Source: Pestalotiopsis fici W106-1 (Eukaryota; Ascomycota; Sordariomycetes; Amphisphaeriales; Sporocadaceae). Taken from it: a stretch of DNA of 64,000 nucleotides. Shown here piece by piece: positions 1,033 to 61,776 of this stretch (positions are counted from its first letter, which is position 1; each line of letters starts with the position of its first letter). Below the pieces are notes generated by a model, which had not been told where the DNA came from, ran no database searches, and worked only from the letters and a program-made list of their open reading frames with translations. The position numbers and the translations under genes were made by a program. The stretch covers positions 3,324,593 through 3,388,592 of the forward strand of contig NW_006917097.1 in the NCBI RefSeq assembly GCF_000516985.1, read 5' to 3'.

Positions 1033-2454
1033 ATGGCCACCAAAGGCAGAGGTGTCAGCAAAGCATCTTCCAGCAAAGGTGCTGGCAAAACTTCTGGCAA
1101 AAAAGCCCCCAGCAAAGATTCCAAGAAACCTCCCAGGGTATTTCCCGTCCTCACCAAGGGCATCGAGTTTGAGTTTCTCGTGCCATGGCATTTCGACGTT
1201 GACGAAGACGGGAACGGAGGAACGGCCCTTGCGCCCGACCAGCGGTACCGGATCACGGACGGCTACGTGATTGTCGCGCGCCACACCGTCGCGACTGATA
1301 GTTCCGGCGCCGCGAGTATGAGCACCTGGAATGCGGCAATGACCATGGTGCGGGTGGCTATATACGACGTCCTCGTGGCCAATGGCGTCCAGGTCAACGT
1401 GCCTGGGGGCTTCACGATACCAGCCTTTGACCCTACGCATCCCCGCGCAGCCTTGACGAGAGGTGCGGGATTTCTCCGCTGGAATGTGAATAGCGACTCT
1501 AGTATCACGACGGATTTGGACGCAGGTGATTGGGTCGAGTGCGTTGATCCACCACAAACCGAGTTTGATCTCGCAGACATTGAACTCATTACACCAGTGT
1601 TGGAGGCTAACAACGCTGCAAGCGACGCTGAGATCACGAATGCCATTGGCATTCTCCGAGCTCATTTCTTGTGTTTTACTCCGACATCCAGTGGGCTTCA
1701 CGTCCACGTTGGCCAGGGGTCAGTCTTGTATGAAGAAGAGGACCTAAAGAGGATAGCAGGTGTGCTATTTGCCATTGATGTCTGGTTCCAACGGTTGCAC
1801 CCGAATCATCGGCAGAACTCTATGTATTGTGTAAGCACACGCCGAAAGTCATTCCTCGCACATGGCTACACGGCAAAGCAGGCCCACGATATGGAATACG
1901 GTCTTCTGGGGAATCCCTTCAATAACCCAAGCATTACGCCCGGCAACCCTGCGCCAGATGTCATTCAAGCCTGGAAAGAGATTGAGGCGGCTAGTGATAG
2001 CCGTGTAGTCCTCAAGCTGCTTCATACGTTTAGTATGTCCACGTACAACTTTAAAGGCGTCCTGTCACCGAATAAACCAACCATTGAGTTTCGGCAGGCT
2101 GCTGGCAGTCTCAACGCCGAGTGGGCCGTCCACTGGTCAAATCTCGCTGCCGGGGTCGTGGACTGGGCACGCCGATGCGACGGTAATGATTCCGCAGACG
2201 AACTCCGAGCGTTTCTTTCCCAGGCTTCCTTGAAGGAGAGCTCGCCCAACACGCAAGCTTTTTCTCTGATCAACATGATTCGGGATCGGTTCAGATTACC
2301 GGCTGTGGCTGACTATCTTGAGAGAGTCCCTGGCCCCGATCACCGTGCCACCCCCAGAGCAACAGGGCAGCAAGCGCGATGGCGAGAAAACTTCAGACGC
2401 AGATCCGGGAGACGACTTGGCGTCATGCGGCCCAGGACTGATTGGCCGCCTTAA
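1033..2454 (+). CDS. Amidoligase-family (Amidoligase_2-like) protein
   Basis: Single-exon frame of 473 aa from the ATG at 1033; the frame is open further upstream, but this is the first ATG after a Lys/Ser-rich leader begins and a 5'-UTR intron may precede it. Residues 1-37 are Lys/Ser/Gly-rich and low complexity. Next comes the hallmark GIEFEFLVP strand and, in the middle, LELITPVL-like and GLHVHVG segments; the HxH motif after a Ser/Gly turn is typical of the ATP-grasp/glutamine-synthetase-fold amidoligases (COOH-NH2 ligases). A later TIEFRQAAGSL strand matches the third core motif. Fungal members are widespread but their substrates are unknown, so I assign only a fold-level role: probable ATP-dependent amide or peptide bond formation. 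The last 45 residues are Arg-rich and look out of frame; from about 2320 the +1-shifted frame reads more naturally and stops at 2461, so a frameshift is possible. Confidence 0.8.
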   Translation: MATKGRGVSKASSSKGAGKTSGKKAPSKDSKKPPRVFPVLTKGIEFEFLVPWHFDVDEDGNGGTALAPDQRYRITDGYVIVARHTVATDSSGAASMSTWNAAMTMVRVAIYDVLVANGVQVNVPGGFTIPAFDPTHPRAALTRGAGFLRWNVNSDSSITTDLDAGDWVECVDPPQTEFDLADIELITPVLEANNAASDAEITNAIGILRAHFLCFTPTSSGLHVHVGQGSVLYEEEDLKRIAGVLFAIDVWFQRLHPNHRQNSMYCVSTRRKSFLAHGYTAKQAHDMEYGLLGNPFNNPSITPGNPAPDVIQAWKEIEAASDSRVVLKLLHTFSMSTYNFKGVLSPNKPTIEFRQAAGSLNAEWAVHWSNLAAGVVDWARRCDGNDSADELRAFLSQASLKESSPNTQAFSLINMIRDRFRLPAVADYLERVPGPDHRATPRATGQQARWRENFRRRSGRRLGVMRPRTDWPP

Positions 2455-22374: not shown

Positions 22375-22912
22375 TTACAGGGCGGTCCATCCCATCCACA
22401 CCCATGGTTCAGGATCGTTGGTCCGGTAGCTGTGGAGGGTGAGGTTGTTTGTGTCGGCGTCGGCAAAGGTGGAAAAGCTAGACCAGGTGAAGGTCTCGCT
22501 ATAAACTAGAATATCCCTATTGGTGTATGCGGCGAAAATCTAAAGACAAGTATCAGAGTGCTGTTTTGAGGTCATTTCCCAGATAGATCAGTGAACTTCT
22601 TACCCAAAAGTCGAGAGCGTCTTGATCTTCAGCACAGTTGAAGTATAGCACGCTATCATCATCCTCGGCTCTACCACAGGATCCTCTCTCCGAGGTGAGG
22701 TAGACACCAGTAGCACCGTTTCGTACGCCGGCAAAGACACCACAGTCGTCCTCGATGGTTGTCCATTGGCCTGCATCTGTAAGGCAGCCCATGTCGGTGC
22801 CATTCGTGGTACCATGGGCAAGTGCGCGGATCTGTCCCGTACCGTTGAAGGAACTGTCGAGAATGGCCGTGGCGACTCCGGCCAGGGCAGCAAAGACGAT
22901 TCTGCGAAGCAT
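22375..22912 (-). CDS. Small secreted protein (157 aa)
   Basis: Two exons (minus): 22912-22604 and 22539-22375, with a 64-nt intron (GTAAGA...TTTAG) at phase 0; 157 aa. Residues 1-16 (MLRRIVFAALAGVATA) look like a signal peptide. The mature protein is acidic, with four Cys (GCLTDAG, DDCGVF, GSCGRA, FNCAED), an Asp-rich AEDDDS patch and a Trp-rich end (WVWMGWTAL). The beta-rich look, with short Gly/Thr/Asp turns, suggests a small extracellular domain, but I recognise no family. A TATATAAT-like element near 23045-23052, about 135 bp upstream, could be its TATA box. It may be another secreted accessory protein; function unknown. Confidence 0.82.
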
Positions 22913-25618
22913 GTTGAATAAGTATGAGAGGGCTACTCTAGGTAGATGGTAATAATCGGTGTTTTCAGTGTAGTTGAGTCTTGATCAAGGCAATTTGAAT
23001 TGTATTGCTTTGAATAGTCAAGTGATCGGCGGCCAAGGCATGACTATATAATTTTTTACCCTTTTCGACCTCCACCTAGGTAACGGAAGTTGTCCACGGC
23101 CATTTACATCGGTGTGGGACTCTTACCGATCATATGTCATGCCCTTGATCAAAAAAAGTTCATCGAGGTCTCCACAAGCATACGGCATGGTTACAAGGTG
23201 ACATGATGTAGGTAGGGTAGGTATCCATCTCCTTTCTTGGTGGCGGCGCCCAATCGACGCGTGGGTTTAAGGGTTCAACCTGAACCCTTGCTTGGCACCC
23301 GTCTGGCTGGAAACTGAAGGTCCACAAATCACCAAAGATCCAGCTTGATCATCCTAAGTCCCCGTTTACAACTTGCACACTAGAGACCTTTAGTCACCCG
23401 ATCCAGCTCCGAGCAACGAGACAGCAACACGCCCAAGTCTGCACGCCACCCGAAGCGGACTGCCGACCGGCAGTTGTGGAATGTAGCGTGCCTCATCGTG
23501 CGCTATGGTGTGGCAGGACGGGACTTTACGGTTCATCTTTTTATTCGCTGGCCCCTTTTGCAACGAGGAATAAAATACGTTGTTCCAAGACATGTCAATA
23601 TCAAGTTTAATAAGATGACACTCCTTCGAAGGGGGGGTAATCGGACAAGGTTGTCACCTGTCAGCTTTTGTCAAGCTTTCCTGGGCCAGACCTGTCAGGC
23701 CTAGGGAAATGCGGCATAGGCCGCGGCATCGCTGATTTGGTTGACGGGAACCCTTGGAACATGACCACATGCCGGAGCTTCTCAAGACGGTGTCGTTTGT
23801 CGTTCAGTCGCGCCCATTGGCTCTTGGACATGCACGACTAATTGAGTGTTCCGTCACATCGTGGGCAGCCCCGGAGGCGCCCATGGGCACTGCTGTGTAC
23901 GTATCATTGGTGTCGGTCGGGAGTCGTTGGACTTGGAGCCCATGTGCAGAGTCTAGACAGACTCCATGCTCTTACACCACACTAACTTGAAGGGAGAAAA
24001 AAAGCCACCGGACAAGAGACCATACCACCTACCTAGCTGGAAGATCCGGTTGCGACTTCGGAATCTCCCTGAATGCTCCGTTTGCACGGAATATTCGGCG
24101 CATTTTCTGATATACTCAACTCCAAAATGCAAACCCTGGACATCGGCGAGAAAAAGAAAGGCCGAACAGTAACATGACAAATCTCAATCATCCTACTGAC
24201 CGGTCTGCGCTGTTTACAGTCGCTTCCAAATATGATCAGTTCTGGTTCGATTTAATGGAAGTGCGCCCTTCCCAATTCTGAACAAATGGTCAATGCTGTG
24301 AGACTAGTAATATCGCAGTGGATATATTCTGAATGCTTCTTGGTCCCTGCTTCACGCCTCTTACGTACCTACCTCGAGCAGGGTCTTAAAATCTGATAAA
24401 TGAAGGATTTCTCGAATCTTGGCTCGCGTCTCATGATTGGCCTATTTTCATCATCTGGTTTTCCTCTCTTGGTACTCGGAGGACCCAATCAAATTATAAG
24501 ATCCCTAAAAATATTTCAGTCTGGGGATTTCCGGATCGTCACAAAGGTGCGGTCCACCTCATCTAGCCCTTCTCGGCCATCTGTTCTGAATTTTTCTTCA
24601 AGGACCGTTTTGACAAAGGCTTACCGTCTACCATCTACTACATACCCAAAGGCTCAGAATCCTAGGTTCCAGTGTCCACTAGTATTAGATTCTCCACTGC
24701 CCAAATCATCGACAGACGTACACAGTATTCCACTTTTGACCTTGATTTCACTCATTCGAGCCATGGTTTGTGCCTTGCCGCGATGAGGCCACGAACCTTT
24801 GATGCATGACGCCTTGGGGAAAAGCAATCATGATTCCGTAGACGTCAGGGTTCTTGCGAGAAGCTATTCAAGGCATCAAATTGGTTAAATGATCAGCTCA
24901 ATGGCTCATGACAAAAGCAATGTCGCAGGTATATGAGTAAGTGCGTATGCTGCACGTACCACACCTATATTTGGGGGGGCTTTTTCTTTCCTTTTTTTCT
25001 GCCCCTACCCTACTGCGCGGCCGTTCAACTGAACTAAATCCAGACCTAGACAAGGGTAATGTTATCGCTAGCAAATGGGGCCAGTGTCGCCGTCCCGACA
25101 CTAAAGAAGAGCGACCCAACTCCCACATCCCGAATGCCCTATGGGGTGGTCCCGCGCCCAAACTGTCACTAAATTATACCTCCCATATTCCCGATTGCCG
25201 GAGAGCTATCGGCATTGAACATGCTCATTTGTTGTCTCGTCGCTTCTTGTGTTTCAACGGACTTGTAGCTTCATCCCATATTCTACCGAATAACAAGCGA
25301 AGAATGATGATATAATAATACGAATAACAATAATTATCATTACAATAAATTGTATTTCCATACATGTCATGTTCAGCGAAGCCACGGCCAAGCAATTTAA
25401 TGGCGACATATCTAAAAGATGAGACATATTTAACTTCCGGCTTTCATGCTGAACTGACTATACGCGCGTCAGGAATGCCCCGCCACTGCCGAAAGACAGA
25501 ATTGCGCAAACATTTTCGCCAGCACAAGATAGCATACGTCAAATCTTTGATCAAAAAAGTCTCAAACTAGGTATAATCGAATCTCTATAGCCCTGGGAGC
25601 TCCAAGCAACACCATGAG
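22913..25618. other. Gene-poor region
   Basis: About 2.7 kb without a supportable gene. Frames up to 128 codons (such as 24400-24786) have no motif and unlikely composition. 25305-25360 is strongly AT-rich (TAATAATACGAATAAC-type sequence). Confidence 0.4.
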
Positions 25619-26752: not shown

Positions 26753-27408
26753 TTAAATGGCCTCGCACCAGGCAATGCAATCGGCCTGGGCGGCGGGGTC
26801 CTCAAAGTCACAGACACCGGGGCGGTTGCACTAAAGGAATGTCAGTTCACTGTATACACCAATAGAGTGAGGAATCAAGGGTAGTATATCTTACAAACTC
26901 AGAGGAGAGCGGCTCGGGGCTGCGCTTGGGCTTCAACCAGCCAGGAATGGCCTCACACTGAGCGATGCACTGGGCCTGGGCAGTGGCGTCCTCAAAGTCG
27001 CAGACACCGGGGCGGTTGCACTAGGAACGATATCAGAACTGATGCTTCTCGGACACAAGACAGGAGAGCCATGGATATTCTTCTTACAAAGGAAGCAGTC
27101 AGAGGCTCTGGGGCTCTCTTGGCCTTGAACCAGCCAGGCATGGCCTCGCAGCGGGCAATGCACTGCGCCTGGGCAGCAGCATTGTTGGGGAAGTAGCAAA
27201 GACCGGGAGAGTTGCACTAGGGGAATCATGAGCACTGTTTCATTCTTGTCGTCAACCGAGTATTGACAAGTCTTGTTCTTACGAATTTGGAGGAGAGAGG
27301 CTCGGGCTCTCTCTTGGTCTTCAGCCAGCCGGGAATGGCCTCGCATTGGGCAATGCATTGAGCCTGGGCAGTGGCATCCTCAAAGTCACACAGACCGGGA
27401 CGGTTGCA
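26753..27408 (-). repeat. Tandem exon-intron repeat array
   Basis: Four tandem copies of an exon of about 126 nt plus its intron (period about 190 nt). Exon copies 2 and 4 are nearly identical and copy 3 is diverged, while the introns share only their ends. On the plus strand the array is visible as repeated GGCGGTTGCACTA and CCTGGGCAGTGGC-like blocks. It evidently arose by duplication of an exon-intron unit. Confidence 0.9.
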
Positions 27409-27544
27409 CTAGATGATTTGTCAGTGTGTACTTCTTTTATGCTGGCAGCTTCTTGTATAGCCTTACGAATTCCGAGCTCAGAGGAGAAGGGGCCGCAAGA
27501 GTGGCGGCAGCAAAGAGGACGGTGGACAAGGTAAAGGCACGCAT
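26753..27544 (-). CDS. Kex2-processed precursor of four tandem Cys-rich peptides
   Basis: Five exons (minus): 27544-27467, 27408-27283, 27216-27088, 27020-26895, 26830-26753; introns of 58, 66, 67 and 64 nt, all phase 0, all GTAAG...CTAG or TTTAG; 178 aa. Exon 1 is a signal peptide ending near TLAAPSPLSSEF. Exons 2-4 each encode one repeat of 42, 43 and 42 aa starting exactly at a Cys: CNRPGLCDFEDATAQAQC, then IAQCEAIPGWLK, then a basic TKR/AKR/PKR site, then EPEPL/APEPL/SPEPL and SSKF/TASF/SSEF. Exon 5 is a truncated 25-aa copy ending CEAI. Each copy has four Cys (C-x5-C-x10/11-C-x3-C). KR is a Kex2 site, and the X-Pro-X-Pro that follows fits Ste13-type trimming, as in yeast alpha-factor. 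Predicted products are about 30-aa secreted peptides with two disulfides. No known family recognised; TATATAAT near 27753-27760 may be the TATA box. Confidence 0.88.
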
Positions 27545-30384: not shown

Positions 30385-30850
30385 TTGGAAGGGAACATGA
30401 CATTAGTGTTTACTTGAGGTCACCGGGTTTTCATGATTCAATACTACAGGGCTACCAAGCCATCTGTACCTGCCCTACGAATCCAGTGATCTCAAAGTCT
30501 ACGAATGAATAAAATATGATGCAACACAGGAGACTGCAAATTGGCCCTAGAGTCTTTGTCTTTCGATATCTTATCGGCTCAATCTAGACCGCGAGACCTT
30601 TGTCCTCGAGATTGACGAGAAAAAAGGAATTCGCCGTTGTACACAAATCTATGCCAAGCCCTTTGTGATGAAAAACCATAGATGTCGCCATTCCCAGGTA
30701 TCGTAGGGTTGATCAGTGTTCTTCGCATTTCAGCCTCTCCTCGGGTGAGTTACTGCAGCATAAACGACCTGTTCCGTCACTTGCAGAAAGGACCCTCTAG
30801 AAGCTCCCATTAACTCCAACACCAGCGCTGTGGTACCCATTCAGCTCAAC
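30385..30850. other. Intergenic
   Basis: A 466-bp spacer between two plus-strand genes; nothing found beyond presumed terminator and promoter sequence. Confidence 0.5.
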
Positions 30851-31573
30851 ATGAATATGCGCTTCTCGACCATCCTGACCCTGTTATTGGCGGGGATATG
30901 TGGTACATTGGCTCAGACACCGGGCTTTGATCCCATGAGCAAGCCGACCAACTGGCAAGACGTAACCGCCGGAGAAAACTTTCAGATTGTCTGGGACCCA
31001 ACAAGCTACAAGGGAACAATCACCTTGGAGCTGCTCGGCGGTGGAAGCCCAGCTACATTATGGATCCTGGGTAACATTGCTCAGGGTGTTGATAATCAGC
31101 AAGGACAATACAACTGGGCTGTGCCGACTAATCTCGGCCAGTTGGAAACATATGGAATACGCATCTTGCTCGAGTCTAACCCTTCGATCCTGCAATATTC
31201 CTTTCCATTCCACGTTCGACAGCCAAAGGCTGGTGCAAGCACCCAGTCCCCAGCCCAGTCGACACCCCAAGCTGCTCCATCTGCACCGGCAGTCAATTCT
31301 GTCTCACAAGTTGCATCCCAGCCAACCTCGCAGACCTCTCCAATCGCGTCTCAAGCTTCACAGACGATAAGCCAGTCTGCTCCCAAAAGCACCTCTCAGG
31401 CTGCATCTCAAGCGGCGACTTCTACTATCCTTGCAAATACCGCAAAGACCACACCCCCCGCAACTACACAACCCGCACCCCAGCCAACGGTCCAGACCAT
31501 TACTCGGCTGCCCGAGAGATGCAAGGTTCGACGGCGTTGGGCCCCTTCTGACTTTGGGTATTCAAGCTATTGA
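30851..31573 (+). CDS. Secreted Kre9/KNH-domain protein
   Basis: Single exon of 240 aa from the ATG at 30851 (the frame extends upstream to a GTG, but ATG-AAT-ATG follows it). Residues 1-22 form a signal peptide (FSTILTLLLAGICGTLAQ). Residues about 28-125 match the Kre9/KNH immunoglobulin-like N-terminal domain: PTNWQDVTAGENFQIVWDP, TITLELLGGG, NWAVPTNL, YGIRILLES and YSFPFHVRQ. This is the common extracellular module of fungal Ser/Thr-rich wall proteins. The C-terminal 110 residues are a Ser/Gln/Ala/Thr/Pro-rich linker with repeated SQAASQ-like units, probably O-glycosylated. Unusually, no GPI omega site or hydrophobic tail follows; the protein ends RWAPSDFGYSSY, so it should be released or held in the wall non-covalently. 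A shifted frame near 31515-31550 could be an alternative end. Confidence 0.85.
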   Translation: MNMRFSTILTLLLAGICGTLAQTPGFDPMSKPTNWQDVTAGENFQIVWDPTSYKGTITLELLGGGSPATLWILGNIAQGVDNQQGQYNWAVPTNLGQLETYGIRILLESNPSILQYSFPFHVRQPKAGASTQSPAQSTPQAAPSAPAVNSVSQVASQPTSQTSPIASQASQTISQSAPKSTSQAASQAATSTILANTAKTTPPATTQPAPQPTVQTITRLPERCKVRRRWAPSDFGYSSY

Positions 31574-31871: not shown

Positions 31872-34166
31872 TTACTGCGCAACCCCACCACCCACGTAGC
31901 CCGTACCACTTCCCCGTCCACCACCAGTGCGATTCGTCGTGGCCTCGGGCCGGGGGACCACGGTATCGGCATAGCGAACCCAGCCGTCGGCGGAGTCGGG
32001 GACCGTGGCCTCGCAGGTAACGACGCTGACGAGCAAATGGTTCAGCTCGCCGCGCGACCGGCGCCGGCCGTCGGCCAGCGTGACGCGCCAGTGGAGATGC
32101 GTCTGCAGATACGGCACCACGTGCTCTGGACGTAGGCTGTCGAGCAGGCCCGCGAGGTAGCGCTCCGCCAGGGCAATGGTCAGGGGCACCTGGCCCGTGA
32201 TGCGCAGACCCTCGGCGCGTCCCTTCTGGCAGTTCTCGCAGGCCGTATCAGCGTCCTGGCCAAACGTCGCCACTACGCCCACGTGCCCGTGGTTGGTCGG
32301 GTAGAGCATGGGCGCCGCGTCGTCGGGGTCTCCCAGGAATACGTGCACGACATAGTTGCCGTCCAGCTCGGCCTTTTCGGCGCGAATGTTGACGAGCCAT
32401 TCTAGGTATTTGTGGTCGTTGCCGACGAGCTTCTTGATGTCCCGGTCTTCCTGGGGCTTTGATGGTGTCGAAGATGCTGCTGCTGGTGGTGGTGTTGCTG
32501 CAACGGGCACTTGTTCCGGTACCTGTTCAGTCTGGATGGTGATTTCAGGGCTGGCGCTGGGTTTTGCGATCGCCGGGGCCTTGACGGTAGCAGCGACATG
32601 GGCCTCGGCCCTGGTCTTGAGATTTTTGACCGAGGCGTCGAACGCGGCGCCGGTGCTCGCCAGAATATTGGCCAGCGAGGCGCTCTGGTAGAGGCGCCTC
32701 AGCTCCTGAGCGATATCCTCGCGCCTGGGGAACAGCCAGTCCTGCGTCTCGGGGTAGACGTAGCCAAACGTCTTGGTGGACCGGACGCCCTCGGAAGTCC
32801 AAAAGGTCCCGCCGCTCGTGGGGCTGCCGCCGGGGAACTCGACAAACGGCATCAGCGGCGTGGCCGCCGACTCGGTGCTGCCGGCGCGGGTGTAAAAGTT
32901 GCCCTCGGCGGCCGGCCGGGGCGTCACGTAGGTCGCCGTGTTGCCCGGGTCGTCGTGCAGCGCCTGCCAAATGGCAAAGAGGCGGTCGACGTTGGTGTGG
33001 TGCAGCCAGAAGATGGGATCAAACGCCGCGACGGGCGGCGACGCCATTTGCCCGCCGCCGCCGACGTAGTTGTGAATGGCATTGTGAATATCCTCGATGC
33101 TACCCCAGCCCTCGAACCCGGGCGTGATGGACTGGCTGTCGAAACGGTTGTTGGACGCCGCTCCAAAGTTGGTGTAGGACTGGAGAATGTACAGGACACG
33201 TTCCGTAAGATTTCGGCCTTTTGGTGAAGACTGTTGGCCTTGGAAGAATGCAGACAGCTGCTGCTTCATTGCTTGTTCGTCAGGGGTGTCAGATCCCTGA
33301 GAAGGGAAACGCACAGTCGCGTTGACATCCGGGAACTAAGGCTTGATTAGTTATATGATCTGTGACGGAAATACGGATCATATATCATACCCAATTGATG
33401 TTGTCATCACTGGCAGACTCCCTGAATGTATATGACGCCAGGGGGTTTGGCTTGATGGGGGCCTCTGCAGAGGTCTTGGGCCTGGCGACCTGGTTGTTGG
33501 CATCGATACCTGCCTCTGCTGGGAAGACGGGAAGATCTGGTCGGGCCCAATCCCAGTAGGGCATGCGGAACGTCTTTGCTGCCTTGACATAGTCGGCCTT
33601 TCGTTCAGCGTCACTGAAGCTGTTGGCTACAGCATTAACGTGTTTGTATAATTCAGCCTGGTTTGCCAAGTATTAGTCCCGGTCGCCCAAGGGATGTAGG
33701 TATCGAGTCCCTTACTTCAAACAAGGCAAGGTAAGGGCGGTGCCAAGGGAGAAACAAAATGGAACTGTGTGTACAGAAGCCACCGAACCCACGAGATCCG
33801 CTAACGGGCTTCATAGTATTCCAGTCTCTGTCTGGCCATTTCGTGTATGGGAAGCCATGAATTCCTGTAAACATTAGCACATTCACCTTCTCATCCATGA
33901 CATCTGTGTTGAGTTTTACCTGAGATCTGAAAGTATGAAAGCGGTGCATTCTCGGCCACGGAGTTTTGGAACCTCTCTAGACCCAAGAGATATAGGTTCC
34001 ACTGATCTGGCTGATTCTTTATCATGTCACGAACTTCCAAACGTGCCGGGGGCTTGGCTATATCGTGTCAATATATATCCTCGTATGTCAGATAGTCACT
34101 ATACTTACCAGAGTCATCAGGTTTGATGCCATTTATGATGACTGGACCATTTGTACCGTCCGACAT
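31872..34166 (-). CDS. Tyrosinase (type-3 copper, polyphenol oxidase)
   Basis: Five exons (minus): 34166-34109, 34057-33920, 33864-33716, 33657-33391, 33335-31872; introns of 51, 55, 58 and 55 nt; 691 aa. Tyrosinases oxidise monophenols and o-diphenols to quinones, feeding melanin or cross-linking. Copper ligands are visible: CuA His68 (SGIHGFPY), His98 in CTH and His107 in PWHRPY; CuB His288 and His292 (EDIHNAIHNY) and the HH of FWLHHTNVDRL (316/317). Cys96, two residues before His98, is the usual fungal Cys-His thioether position. No signal peptide, as usual for cytosolic fungal tyrosinases. After about residue 450 come a Pro/Ala/Gln linker and a C-terminal domain (EYLVNIRAEK-like, YVVHVFLGDP), corresponding to the lid that keeps the proenzyme latent. 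Length fits the long proenzyme form. Confidence 0.95.
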
Positions 34167-58656: not shown

Positions 58657-59367
58657 TCACGAGTGATAAATGCCCCAGGCAGTCGAGTAGCTTCCCGAGG
58701 CGCTATTTTCTTCGGGACAGGTCATTTCGCCCGAGGCGCCGACCTTGCCGGAAGAAGGCGAGTTGCCGCACTGGCTGACGCTGTCGGTGATGAGATCGCC
58801 CACGTCCTGCCAGCCGACGCGGACGGCGAGGCTGGTGCCGGCGCTGACGGTGCTGACGCCAAACATGCAGCTCTGGTACGACACGACGGGGTAGTAGCAC
58901 GTGAACTGGCCCGTGGTCGAGTCCGGGTTGCACTCGGACCGCCCAAAGTAGGCATTGTTGTTGGCCGCGAGCTGGTACACTTGGGTCGCGATGACCTGGC
59001 AGTCGCTGATGAGCGGGGAGTTGTCCGAGCCTTCATTGTCGATGCTGCTCGCGCTGCACCAGCCCGCTGCACCTCTTGGATGCGACGCTGCTGATGCCGC
59101 ACGTCTGTCGCTCGGGGAGAAAGAAGAGGAACCAGCGTGGGAGGACCTCAAAGTCAGTGCGACAGCATCTGCCGTCTCTAGTGATGAAGGAGTGCCGTAT
59201 ATTCTGACTCCGCTGTCCAAGGTCGTGTAGTTGTCTGCGTACGGGCTGATGGGACCAGCTGTGCCCGGTGCGACTGCTCGGACGTCTACCGAGAAGGCCG
59301 TAGACACGGCCGTCTCGAGGGACAGGACGGCGAGCATCCATACTGATCGCACGTTTGTCTTCATCAT
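58657..59367 (-). CDS. Secreted Hce2/Ecp2-like effector-type protein
   Basis: Single exon of 236 aa from an ATG at 59367 (Met-Met; the second ATG at 59364 is equally possible; the frame runs on upstream to a GTG). The N-terminus is a signal peptide (VWMLAVLSLETAVSTAFS). Residues about 30-100 are a Ser/Ala/Thr-rich pro-region; then an Hce2 domain (homologues of Cladosporium fulvum Ecp2) with the features SPLISDCQVIATQ, VVSYQSCMFGV, VRVGWQDVGDLI and GKVGASGEMTC. Seven Cys are present; the usual set pairs in two or three disulfides. Ecp2-type proteins are secreted virulence or necrosis-associated proteins in plant pathogens and also occur widely in insect-associated and saprotrophic fungi, so the host role is open. 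I describe family membership only. A TATTTA element about 145 bp upstream may be the TATA box. Confidence 0.88.
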   Translation of the reverse strand: MMKTNVRSVWMLAVLSLETAVSTAFSVDVRAVAPGTAGPISPYADNYTTLDSGVRIYGTPSSLETADAVALTLRSSHAGSSSFSPSDRRAASAASHPRGAAGWCSASSIDNEGSDNSPLISDCQVIATQVYQLAANNNAYFGRSECNPDSTTGQFTCYYPVVSYQSCMFGVSTVSAGTSLAVRVGWQDVGDLITDSVSQCGNSPSSGKVGASGEMTCPEENSASGSYSTAWGIYHS

Positions 59368-61776
59368 TCTTTCTTCCTTTATTTCCTTTTCCCTTTTCCT
59401 TTTCCCCTTGAGCCTCAATCCCCTCACTCAAATTGACGTTTTCGTTTTCCCCAACTGGCCAATCGGTCTTGTGCGACGGCACTCAACGAACGACTACCCA
59501 CGCCGCCGGCTAAATAGGCAGGGTGGATGGAAAGAGCTGGCAACAGATTGATGTATGACTGAGTAGGAGTGACTCGATACAAAAAAAAGTAAATCACTTG
59601 AACCCGTGATATAGAAATCAGCCTCCTTGCGATGCAGCAAATCAAAAAGGAACGACAGGCGAGAGAGCTACCGAATTAACAAGATCGTGTGATTCGACAC
59701 AATGCACGGAAAGAAGGACAAAAAGGTAAATGATCTTCATGCCTTTTCTAGTTTTCTATAAATCCCCCCCAAACTCTTGGGTTCGTTCCAAGAAGGACAG
59801 CAGGGCCCTATCATCAACAAGGGGACCCTCGCCCCCCCTCCCCCCCTCCCTCACCGTCGTGCGGAGTGTTGAAAGGATTCCCTTTTTTTTTTTCAGCCCA
59901 CGTCCCCTTTTGCGTGTAAATGCAAGCCAAAAAAGTGACTAGACGTCGCAATCGCATGTGTTCCCCTTGCATCGAACATAGGAAATCAGGCGTACGGCCA
60001 CATGTTCTAGACTGTCCACATGCTTCAATTAACGCATCGTCTTATAACGCATCATCTTATAGAGGCCCCTCTCCATAACCGGAACCAGGGTGTTGGACCG
60101 ATGCCTATCTTGAACGCCAGCACCAAAGTTGCCAATATCGACCAAGACAGAAAAGCAATAAAAAAAAGCCTCGTCAGCCTTCGGAATATTGGCTTTTGCG
60201 TGTAAATGGCCCAATCATTGCCTTTCAATACTTTTTCTCCAAGAGGGGCTCCTCCTCTCTCCTATTAATAGTATACATGGTCAAGTTATTTTTCTTGGTG
60301 CCGAGAAGCTGACTATTACGTTTGTGGACGTTATGCAGTGGTATTGCACCGGGCGGCCGGATCGGATTAGGAAGGACTTTAATTGAGTGACCACCCCTCG
60401 GCCAGTAAATTTGCAAACGCCAATGCTGCAAAAGGAAGGGGGGGCAAATCAGGCAAAGAACCAAACAATCAAGCACATGAAAGAAACGAGGACACGTTCA
60501 TTTTGGTATTTGTTCTCTGTTTCTCGCCGAGGGGGGCCAAAGTCAAATGTGCAAGGGGGAAAATAAAAAACGTGGTCAATGTTCCCCGATACAGGTGCAC
60601 CATTGCAACCACGAGCTTTTTGTTTTCCCCCTTCTCATTCTCCCGAATATCCGGGTCACATTTGCAATTTCTATTATCGTAGCTGAGGCTGACTGATTGG
60701 GACGAATCATGAAATGGAGTCGCCCAGAGAAAGTGACATTGGAACGCAATGTATCTAAGCGACGTTGCCATCGTTCGGGTGATTCGGCCTAGATCGTATT
60801 GTCGCTTTTTTGCCCCATGGTCATGTCTAGAGAGTCTGGACTCTTGTTTTTCGCCTTGAGCATCGTCCGAAAGAATAAAACACAGCATTTTCAAGTCATT
60901 GATGTCATATCAATGGTGAAAAGTCCCATTTTTGGAAAATATAGGTTCTTGCATGCACAAGTATATTGCATATCCCTTGATTTTCTGTTGAACATGCACT
61001 TATAAAGCAACGAGCACCATTACGAAAGCGAGGGCGGACGTAGTACGCAAAGATTCTGGAATCAAACAATGTAATACGCATCGCCATTATGGACGTCGTG
61101 GTACACCTGATTGAGAGACATATTCAAAGATCACGTCCCTGGCTTATTAATTGAGCCTACAAGCCACTGCTATGCAATCTCTAGGCAGGTCGTTAGTCCA
61201 AAACCTGCACCAGCTATTGGACGCGTCGAAGGACAACGCTTCAAGACTCTCCGGGCAAGCCAACGACTATAGATATACCATGAGCCGGGTGGCTTTGTAT
61301 ATGCATGATTCGTAATCAAACCGCCGGCTCTGGGCCATGATATTATGGCGTTCTAGATCGGAATCGTCATTGATTATGGCGATCGCGACCAGGGTCGGGG
61401 AAGGGCAGATAACAGCCTGGCATTGACAGCCTCAACCATGATCCTACGCTAATGAGGACTATACTTGTGAGGGCTGAGTGTTGATATTATATAATGTACT
61501 CCAAGGCCCTTGAATTGTAGGTTTCTTGTCAAATATGTACGAGTGGCGTAGCACCAAAACCTTCAATTTACGAAGCAATGTACTTGTAATCACGCCTCAT
61601 CTTCACCTCATTCATTTTCGTCTTCTTGAAATCAAGAAAATAATGTATTGTCTAAATCAAAATGATGCTTTTGTCTCTTATGCTGGTATCTTTAATGCGT
61701 CGTTCCGCAGGGAAAATGCCCCCATAAACCCACGGCTATAAATAGGACTTTTGTTTGGAAAATATTTCGCTATAGT
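59368..61776. other. Intergenic
   Basis: About 2.4 kb between the Hce2 gene and the 3' end of sidA. Homopolymer C runs (59825-59848) and a T-run near 59883 occur. Frames under 145 codons lack motifs. No siderophore-related gene is found in this gap. Confidence 0.45.

Follow-up and report, generated by a model that had tools for sequence, protein, structure and literature searches.

The gene at this locus raises the question of whether a fungal secreted precursor can be built so that one exon equals one peptide, as an earlier note on this DNA had proposed. We analyzed the gene, its relatives, and its surroundings in the window, i.e., the whole stretch of 64,000 nucleotides from Pestalotiopsis fici W106-1.

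Predicted exon-intron structure

The coding sequence comprises 537 nt including the stop codon and encodes 178 residues. It lies on the minus strand, with the ATG starting at 27544 and the TAA ending at 26753, and its parts are as follows.

27467..27544, minus strand: exon 1, 78 nt; signal-peptide-like segment, then the dipeptides AP-SP and the tail LSSEF
27409..27466, minus strand: intron 1, 58 nt, phase 0; CTGAC branch-site motif
27283..27408, minus strand: exon 2, 126 nt; unit 1, type A, 42 aa (Cys core, KR, EPEP, tail LSSKF)
27217..27282, minus strand: intron 2, 66 nt, phase 0; without a CTRAY motif
27088..27216, minus strand: exon 3, 129 nt; unit 2, type B, 43 aa (Cys core, KR, APEP, tail LTASF)
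27021..27087, minus strand: intron 3, 67 nt, phase 0; CTGAT branch-site motif
26895..27020, minus strand: exon 4, 126 nt; unit 3, type A, 42 aa (Cys core, KR, SPEP, tail LSSEF)
26831..26894, minus strand: intron 4, 64 nt, phase 0; CTGAC branch-site motif
26753..26830, minus strand: exon 5, 78 nt; unit 4, 25 aa, stopping three residues past the fourth Cys, then TAA

The earlier note had placed the gene between these two ends, with full-copy exons of 126, 129, and 126 nt, phase 0 introns throughout, and exons that begin with the first Cys codon and end right before the next Cys. The coordinates were exact, and the rest agrees with our model: all four introns are in phase 0 and run from GTAAG to TAG, the first Cys codon opens exons 2 to 5, and a Phe codon right before the next Cys closes exons 1 to 4. 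The CTRAY motif was found in three of the four introns, starting 15 to 16 nt before the 3' end, and intron 2 has TTGAC at -39 instead. Retention of intron 1, 2, or 4 would bring an in-frame stop, and the lengths of introns 1, 3, and 4 shift the frame if these introns are retained; thus, the predicted splicing of the four introns is well supported by the sequence. A further acceptor-like site, YAG-TGC, is present in intron 2; it lies 18 nt upstream of the acceptor in our model, and its use would lead to an in-frame TGA.

Repeat unit and its apparent constraint

The Cys spacings of units 1 to 4 were 5-10-3, 5-11-3, 5-10-3, and 5-10-3, so that every unit follows the C-x5-C-x10/11-C-x3-C pattern described before. 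The one extra residue of the type B unit in exon 3 lies in CYFPNN. An alignment of the copies gave 15 invariant columns common to the four units, and nucleotide identity between units was 75 to 86% with gap columns excluded. Given these invariant columns and no other match in the genome among the best candidates scored, the array is not a product of chance. Each of the three full units occupies exactly one exon, and the truncated fourth is exon 5. The previously described composition, a signal peptide plus four copies, therefore stands for a signal-like N terminus and three full copies, whereas the fourth copy is truncated to 25 aa and has neither KR nor the PGWLK tail. The motif FCNRPG[LV]C occurs in exons 2, 4, and 5 (26753 to 27408), and exon 3 has CNSPGLC. 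It recalls the alpha-pheromone motif of Xylona, RFCHLPGQGCSK, given in excerpts of PMC6339444, and is one residue shorter between the Cys residues.

The dN/dS ratio was approximately 0.06 to 0.29 in all six repeat pairs (Nei-Gojobori method; the extra codon of exon 3 dropped), a rough estimate given that each pair has only 16 to 29 synonymous sites and that gene conversion between copies of the same gene could distort the values. These low ratios point to a constrained peptide. They also bear on the idea of a fast-evolving, plant-directed effector, the exon units of which would be shuffled for host evasion. A small secreted-looking Cys-rich protein would suit that role, an Hce2-domain gene lies within the window, and an amidoligase of this genome has its nearest relatives in Sporocadaceae, fungi that are often plant associated; however, the ratios indicate constraint and not diversification, and we regard an effector of this kind as very improbable.

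Predicted processing of the precursor

Three KR sites were found, one before each of copies 2 to 4, so that the copies are indeed separated by predicted Kex2 sites, and cleavage at these sites would give four fragments, all alike. In exons 2, 3, and 4, nine more residues are encoded after the KR, and exon and predicted peptide are therefore out of register. Consequently, "one exon, one repeat" holds, whereas the equation of one exon with one peptide does not: each predicted peptide would be encoded by two exons, with a tail from the preceding exon (LSSEF, LSSKF, LTASF, and LSSEF, respectively) and a Cys core from the next one.

The residues after the three KR sites are EP-EP, AP-EP, and SP-EP, and AP-SP follows the predicted signal cleavage; X-P-X-P thus opens all four predicted propeptides, after three of three KR sites and after the signal peptide. 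According to excerpts of PMC6339444, X-A or X-P dipeptides after KR are the STE13 signature of alpha pheromone precursors. These dipeptides were absent from the earlier note. Signal cleavage is predicted after Ala17, so that the first propeptide would begin with AP-SP. The signal peptide was assigned by hydropathy alone, in which the strongest hydrophobic 11-residue stretch was residues 8 to 18 (mean, 2.02) and the best value past residue 25 was 0.82. If trimming by KEX2, KEX1, and STE13 is assumed, the mature peptides would have 36, 37, 36, and 30 residues, most of them longer than the 30 aa or so expected at first. Their calculated average masses, for two disulfides each and complete trimming, were 3913.35, 3992.56, 3851.33, and 3257.56 Da, respectively. 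Their calculated charges, with Cys as free thiols, were +1.7 for peptide 2, which has the type B core, and -2.3 to -5.3 for the others. Processing enzymes of the right kinds seem to be encoded in the genome, judging from the candidate KEX2 and STE13: a kexin P-domain had one match, covering 58 of 86 profile positions, and DPPIV_N had one full match, this profile also matching in 5 of 14 control genomes.

A published pipeline for KEPs asks for at least four fragments after KR or RR cleavage, at least three of them similar, and for repeats that make up at least 15% of the protein (excerpts of PMC6339444). Here, three KR sites would give four fragments, all alike, and the units span residues 27 to 178 of 178. 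This accords with the classification as a KEP-type precursor in the earlier note, with the signal peptide taken from hydropathy. We consider it probable that the gene encodes a KEP with alpha-factor-like maturation (KEX2, KEX1, and STE13) into four two-disulfide peptides. The signal peptide would direct the precursor into the secretory pathway. Cleavage behind each of the three KR sites would be the task of KEX2, whereas KR would be trimmed from the fragment ends by KEX1, and the two X-Pro dipeptides at each front (AP-SP, EP-EP, AP-EP, and SP-EP) by STE13. Four peptides of the lengths given above, each combining a tail from one exon with a C-x5-C-x10/11-C-x3-C core from the next, would be released, and two disulfides would likely hold each core. 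We infer secretion, each of the cleavages, the disulfides, and the splicing from the sequence.

Relatives and genome searches

The full-length protein retrieved no relatives at an E value of ≤1 among 889 candidates, and the signal segment together with a single-unit profile, a query that lets short proteins through, retrieved two relatives among four candidates at an E value of ≤10. Both are unannotated ORFs of exon size: P0002 (57 aa; E value, 7.6e-17) contains a type A unit, and P0003 (59 aa; E value, 8.8e-17) contains a type B unit, in which the additional residue seen in exon 3 is present. They come from the source "lgn," presumably the Logan assemblies built from public reads; the longest contig given for them has 33,619 bases, and they are consistent with one contig. 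Their ends resemble those of exons that have not been spliced. In both, a Gln stands just before the first Cys, as would fit a CAG acceptor (YAG followed by TGC), and F-VR or F-VS past the tail would fit a GTRAG donor; these splice borders are read off the protein ends, not the DNA, of two relatives. Homologues lacking the correspondence of repeat and exon had been named beforehand as evidence against the proposal, and the ends of the relative's two units fit the same borders as far as protein ends can tell, which speaks against that objection. Type A and B units and their borders seem to be older than the split from this relative.

Pro occupies positions 2 and 4 after KR in both P0002 and P0003, and the linker of P0002 is two residues shorter with KR kept. 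These linkers bear on the possibility that the product is a secreted, uncut four-domain small Cys-rich protein, in which KR is just linker. The KR sites lie in homologous linkers, where their conservation may reflect duplication, and their cleavage is predicted from the sequence; the repeated KR-XPXP is likewise not independent evidence, since the units share ancestry. However, KR followed by X-P-X-P was kept in all five full linkers (three here and two in the relative), even in the shorter one, and the predicted signal cleavage is followed by X-P-X-P as well. An uncut protein is thus unlikely in our judgment, and processing of the KEP type is preferred.

No second copy was found in the 51.7-Mb assembly at an E value of ≤0.001 or ≤10 among the best candidates scored. 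No annotated homologue was found in the protein search, possibly because the gene is absent or because it has been modelled incorrectly. As a control of the database, the amidoligase of the window retrieved 16 proteins, including the window's own, among the best 7,991 candidates scored. Six of these relatives have fungal names, including Neopestalotiopsis clavispora (52%), Seiridium unicorne, and a Pestalotiopsis species; N. clavispora and S. unicorne belong to Sporocadaceae, Amphisphaeriales, and the database holds proteins of Sporocadaceae-like fungi. A nucleotide pattern for the architecture (KR-X-P-X-P, donor, acceptor, and Cys) with AAG-AGR had three matches in the genome, all in this gene, including two overlapping readings of a single unit (reversed-pattern controls, 0 and 1), and that with AAG-CGN had one match, again in this gene (reversed-pattern controls, 0 and 0). 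Between them, the two patterns, which covered the Lys codon AAG and acceptors leading into Cys, hit the three KR-bearing units of this gene and nothing else.

The Cys spacing had been said to match no known family, and accordingly none was found through Pfam, the PDB, or the protein search. Three weak Pfam families were obtained with the whole protein, none above the cut-off. The best, PF14861, matched residues 36 to 49 (E = 0.076) with 13.2 bits versus a cut-off of 27. This plant antimicrobial family, which we take to be alpha-hairpinin, is a weak match only, and the first Cys pair here is C-x5-C. One 42-residue unit gave no PDB match by sequence at E values up to 10. Structure prediction of a unit was weak, with a helix only at residues 12 to 23, over the C-x3-C half (pLDDT, 72.8), and lower confidence when an alignment of six was used (pLDDT, 64.9). 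Foldseek with the single-unit model found three PDB matches at an E value of ≤10, the best of which (7.2) was not usable.

Origin of the array and exon combinations

The four introns interrupt homologous units at the same codon, for which duplication of an exon-intron unit is the best explanation; independent insertion would require three coincidences among 126 positions, with a chance near 5e-7 by a simple calculation. The introns themselves gave no convincing homology: in the six pairs, 129, 148, 20, 15, 7, and 68 of 500 shuffles reached the observed score, the best value (7/500) being one out of six comparisons. Synonymous divergence between units was 0.4 to 1.2, and introns that no longer align may therefore be expected. 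We consider tandem duplication of the exon-intron unit the most likely way in which the array grew, a view that rests on intron position, the introns being too diverged to serve as proof. Of the duplication proposed earlier, the shared intron codon in all units stands, whereas clear homology between the introns was not obtained.

All eight combinations of exons 2 to 4 were in frame and encoded complete peptides, with nine distinct mature peptides among them. This bears out the prior claim that unit loss keeps the frame, and a unit could be gained, lost, or skipped with both the frame and the processing sites kept. By anatomy, alternative splicing and change in copy number are possible. A further step, which we offer tentatively and hold to be rather doubtful, is that the gene is a fungal exon-cassette gene in which skipping leads to new tail-core pairings, an independent counterpart of apidaecin, and a member of a class that surveys of protein catalogues miss through mis-annotated short exons. 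If this is true, skipped forms would still be complete, correctly processed peptides with tails and cores newly paired. A precursor with a 42- to 43-codon exon per repeat may easily be lost by gene finders; both relatives came only as unannotated ORFs. If splicing is shown, the gene would offer a clean test in fungi of whether a peptide set changes by exon loss, gain, or skipping.

Neighborhood and possible role

The following other features were identified in the window.

1033-2454, plus strand: amidoligase-like protein, PF12224, 473 aa; best relative 52%, from N. clavispora
22556-22984, minus strand: small secreted-looking ORF with an RNaseT2L_C domain (29.7 bits; cut-off, 27)
30764-31570, plus strand: Kre9/KNH-like domain protein; signal-like start, long tail rich in Ser, Gln, and Thr
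31872-33335, minus strand: tyrosinase with a Tyrosinase_C domain (Pfam), approximately 4.3 kb from the peptide gene
58657-59427, minus strand: Hce2-domain ORF, described in Pfam as "pathogen effector; putative necrosis-inducing factor"

The proximity of the tyrosinase would suit a precursor of a ustiloxin- or phomopsin-type RiPP (dikaritin), the cyclization of which needs tyrosinase according to excerpts of PMC7329392. However, UstYa (PF11807, DUF3328) had at least 48 matches in the genome, counted as exon pieces, none of these on the contig of the window (C7), which argues against a ustiloxin-type cluster at the peptide gene despite the tyrosinase. The cores are also long and Cys rich, and a dikaritin precursor is extremely improbable. 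Many of the UstYa exon pieces lie close together on contigs C1, C2, C6, C10, C11, and C12, and the genome possibly contains several ustiloxin-type clusters.

Alpha pheromones other than that of Xylona also have C-x6-C. FCNRPG-[LV]-C recalls such pheromones, which together with the STE13 signature may suggest that the gene encodes the precursor of a sexual pheromone or derives directly from such a gene. Excerpts of PMC6339444 describe this signature in Ascomycota as generally reserved for alpha pheromones, and a WCxxxGQxCW pattern had no match in the genome (controls, 0 and 0), so that no canonical precursor was found for the role; a second pattern, CxRPGQxC, had seven matches (controls, 1 with the reversed pattern and 0), none of which reads as a repeat precursor in the matched frame, and a canonical pheromone may differ from both patterns. 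On the other hand, the spacing here is x5 and not x6, two further Cys residues are present, and the predicted 30 to 37 residues exceed the 9 to 24 given for alpha pheromones in excerpts of PMC6339444. Nothing on pheromones of Xylariales was found in the open-licence PMC literature. We consider a pheromone precursor or an offshoot of this kind quite improbable.

For the KEP-type precursor preferred here, the likeliest role by analogy is that of an extracellular signal or an agent against other organisms. The constraint on the repeats, together with this analogy, makes us lean weakly toward a conserved peptide for signalling or defence rather than an effector that evolves rapidly.

Comparison with known systems

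KEPs are widely distributed and diverse in fungi, as the title of PMC7329392 states. Judging from excerpts of PMC6339444 and PMC7329392, they have in common with the predicted product of the present gene a precursor that is secreted, at least four KR fragments of which at least three are alike, and repeats that fill most of the protein, whereas the four-Cys cores in 30- to 37-residue peptides and the arrangement of one unit per exon set the present gene apart. By term counts, "exon" and "intron" are absent from the main texts of these two papers, and in the available text of the Agaricomycete KEP paper, "intron" appears once and "exon" never. The pipeline of PMC6339444, as excerpted, starts from protein catalogues, and a mis-spliced gene model would presumably be missed by it. 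The Agaricomycete study, in the text available, reports no phenotype of six kep knockouts in axenic culture and suggests a role in biotic interaction.

The precursors of ascomycete alpha factors likewise have KR with X-A or X-P dipeptides and tandem peptides, along with a signal peptide such as is predicted here, whereas alpha pheromones are short, with C-x6-C in the Xylona motif, and the peptides here are longer with four Cys residues (excerpts of PMC6339444). SP7-like effectors of Glomeromycotina combine a signal peptide, as predicted here, with imperfect repeats (excerpts of PMC11333574), and KEX2 sites have been noted in them (excerpts of PMC5293756); however, they have one conserved intron, located before the first repeat, and one intron per repeat is not described in the excerpts of PMC11333574.

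A fungal precursor with one exon per repeat was not found in the open-licence PMC papers searched, as far as their accessible text goes, which is weak evidence of absence. The closest gene layout that we found is that of honeybee apidaecin, so that exon-per-peptide precursors have already been reported. Excerpts of PMC3415428 describe a multipeptide precursor with several exons each encoding a distinct peptide, and assume for such precursors an alpha-factor-like maturation at dibasic sites and X-A or X-P dipeptides. The two genes, likened here by description only, differ in that apidaecins are insect antibacterial peptides and that in the fungal gene an intron falls inside each predicted peptide. 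Among the papers searched, the layout of one exon per repeat predicted in P. fici was otherwise met only in this account of an insect antimicrobial gene (excerpts of PMC3415428).
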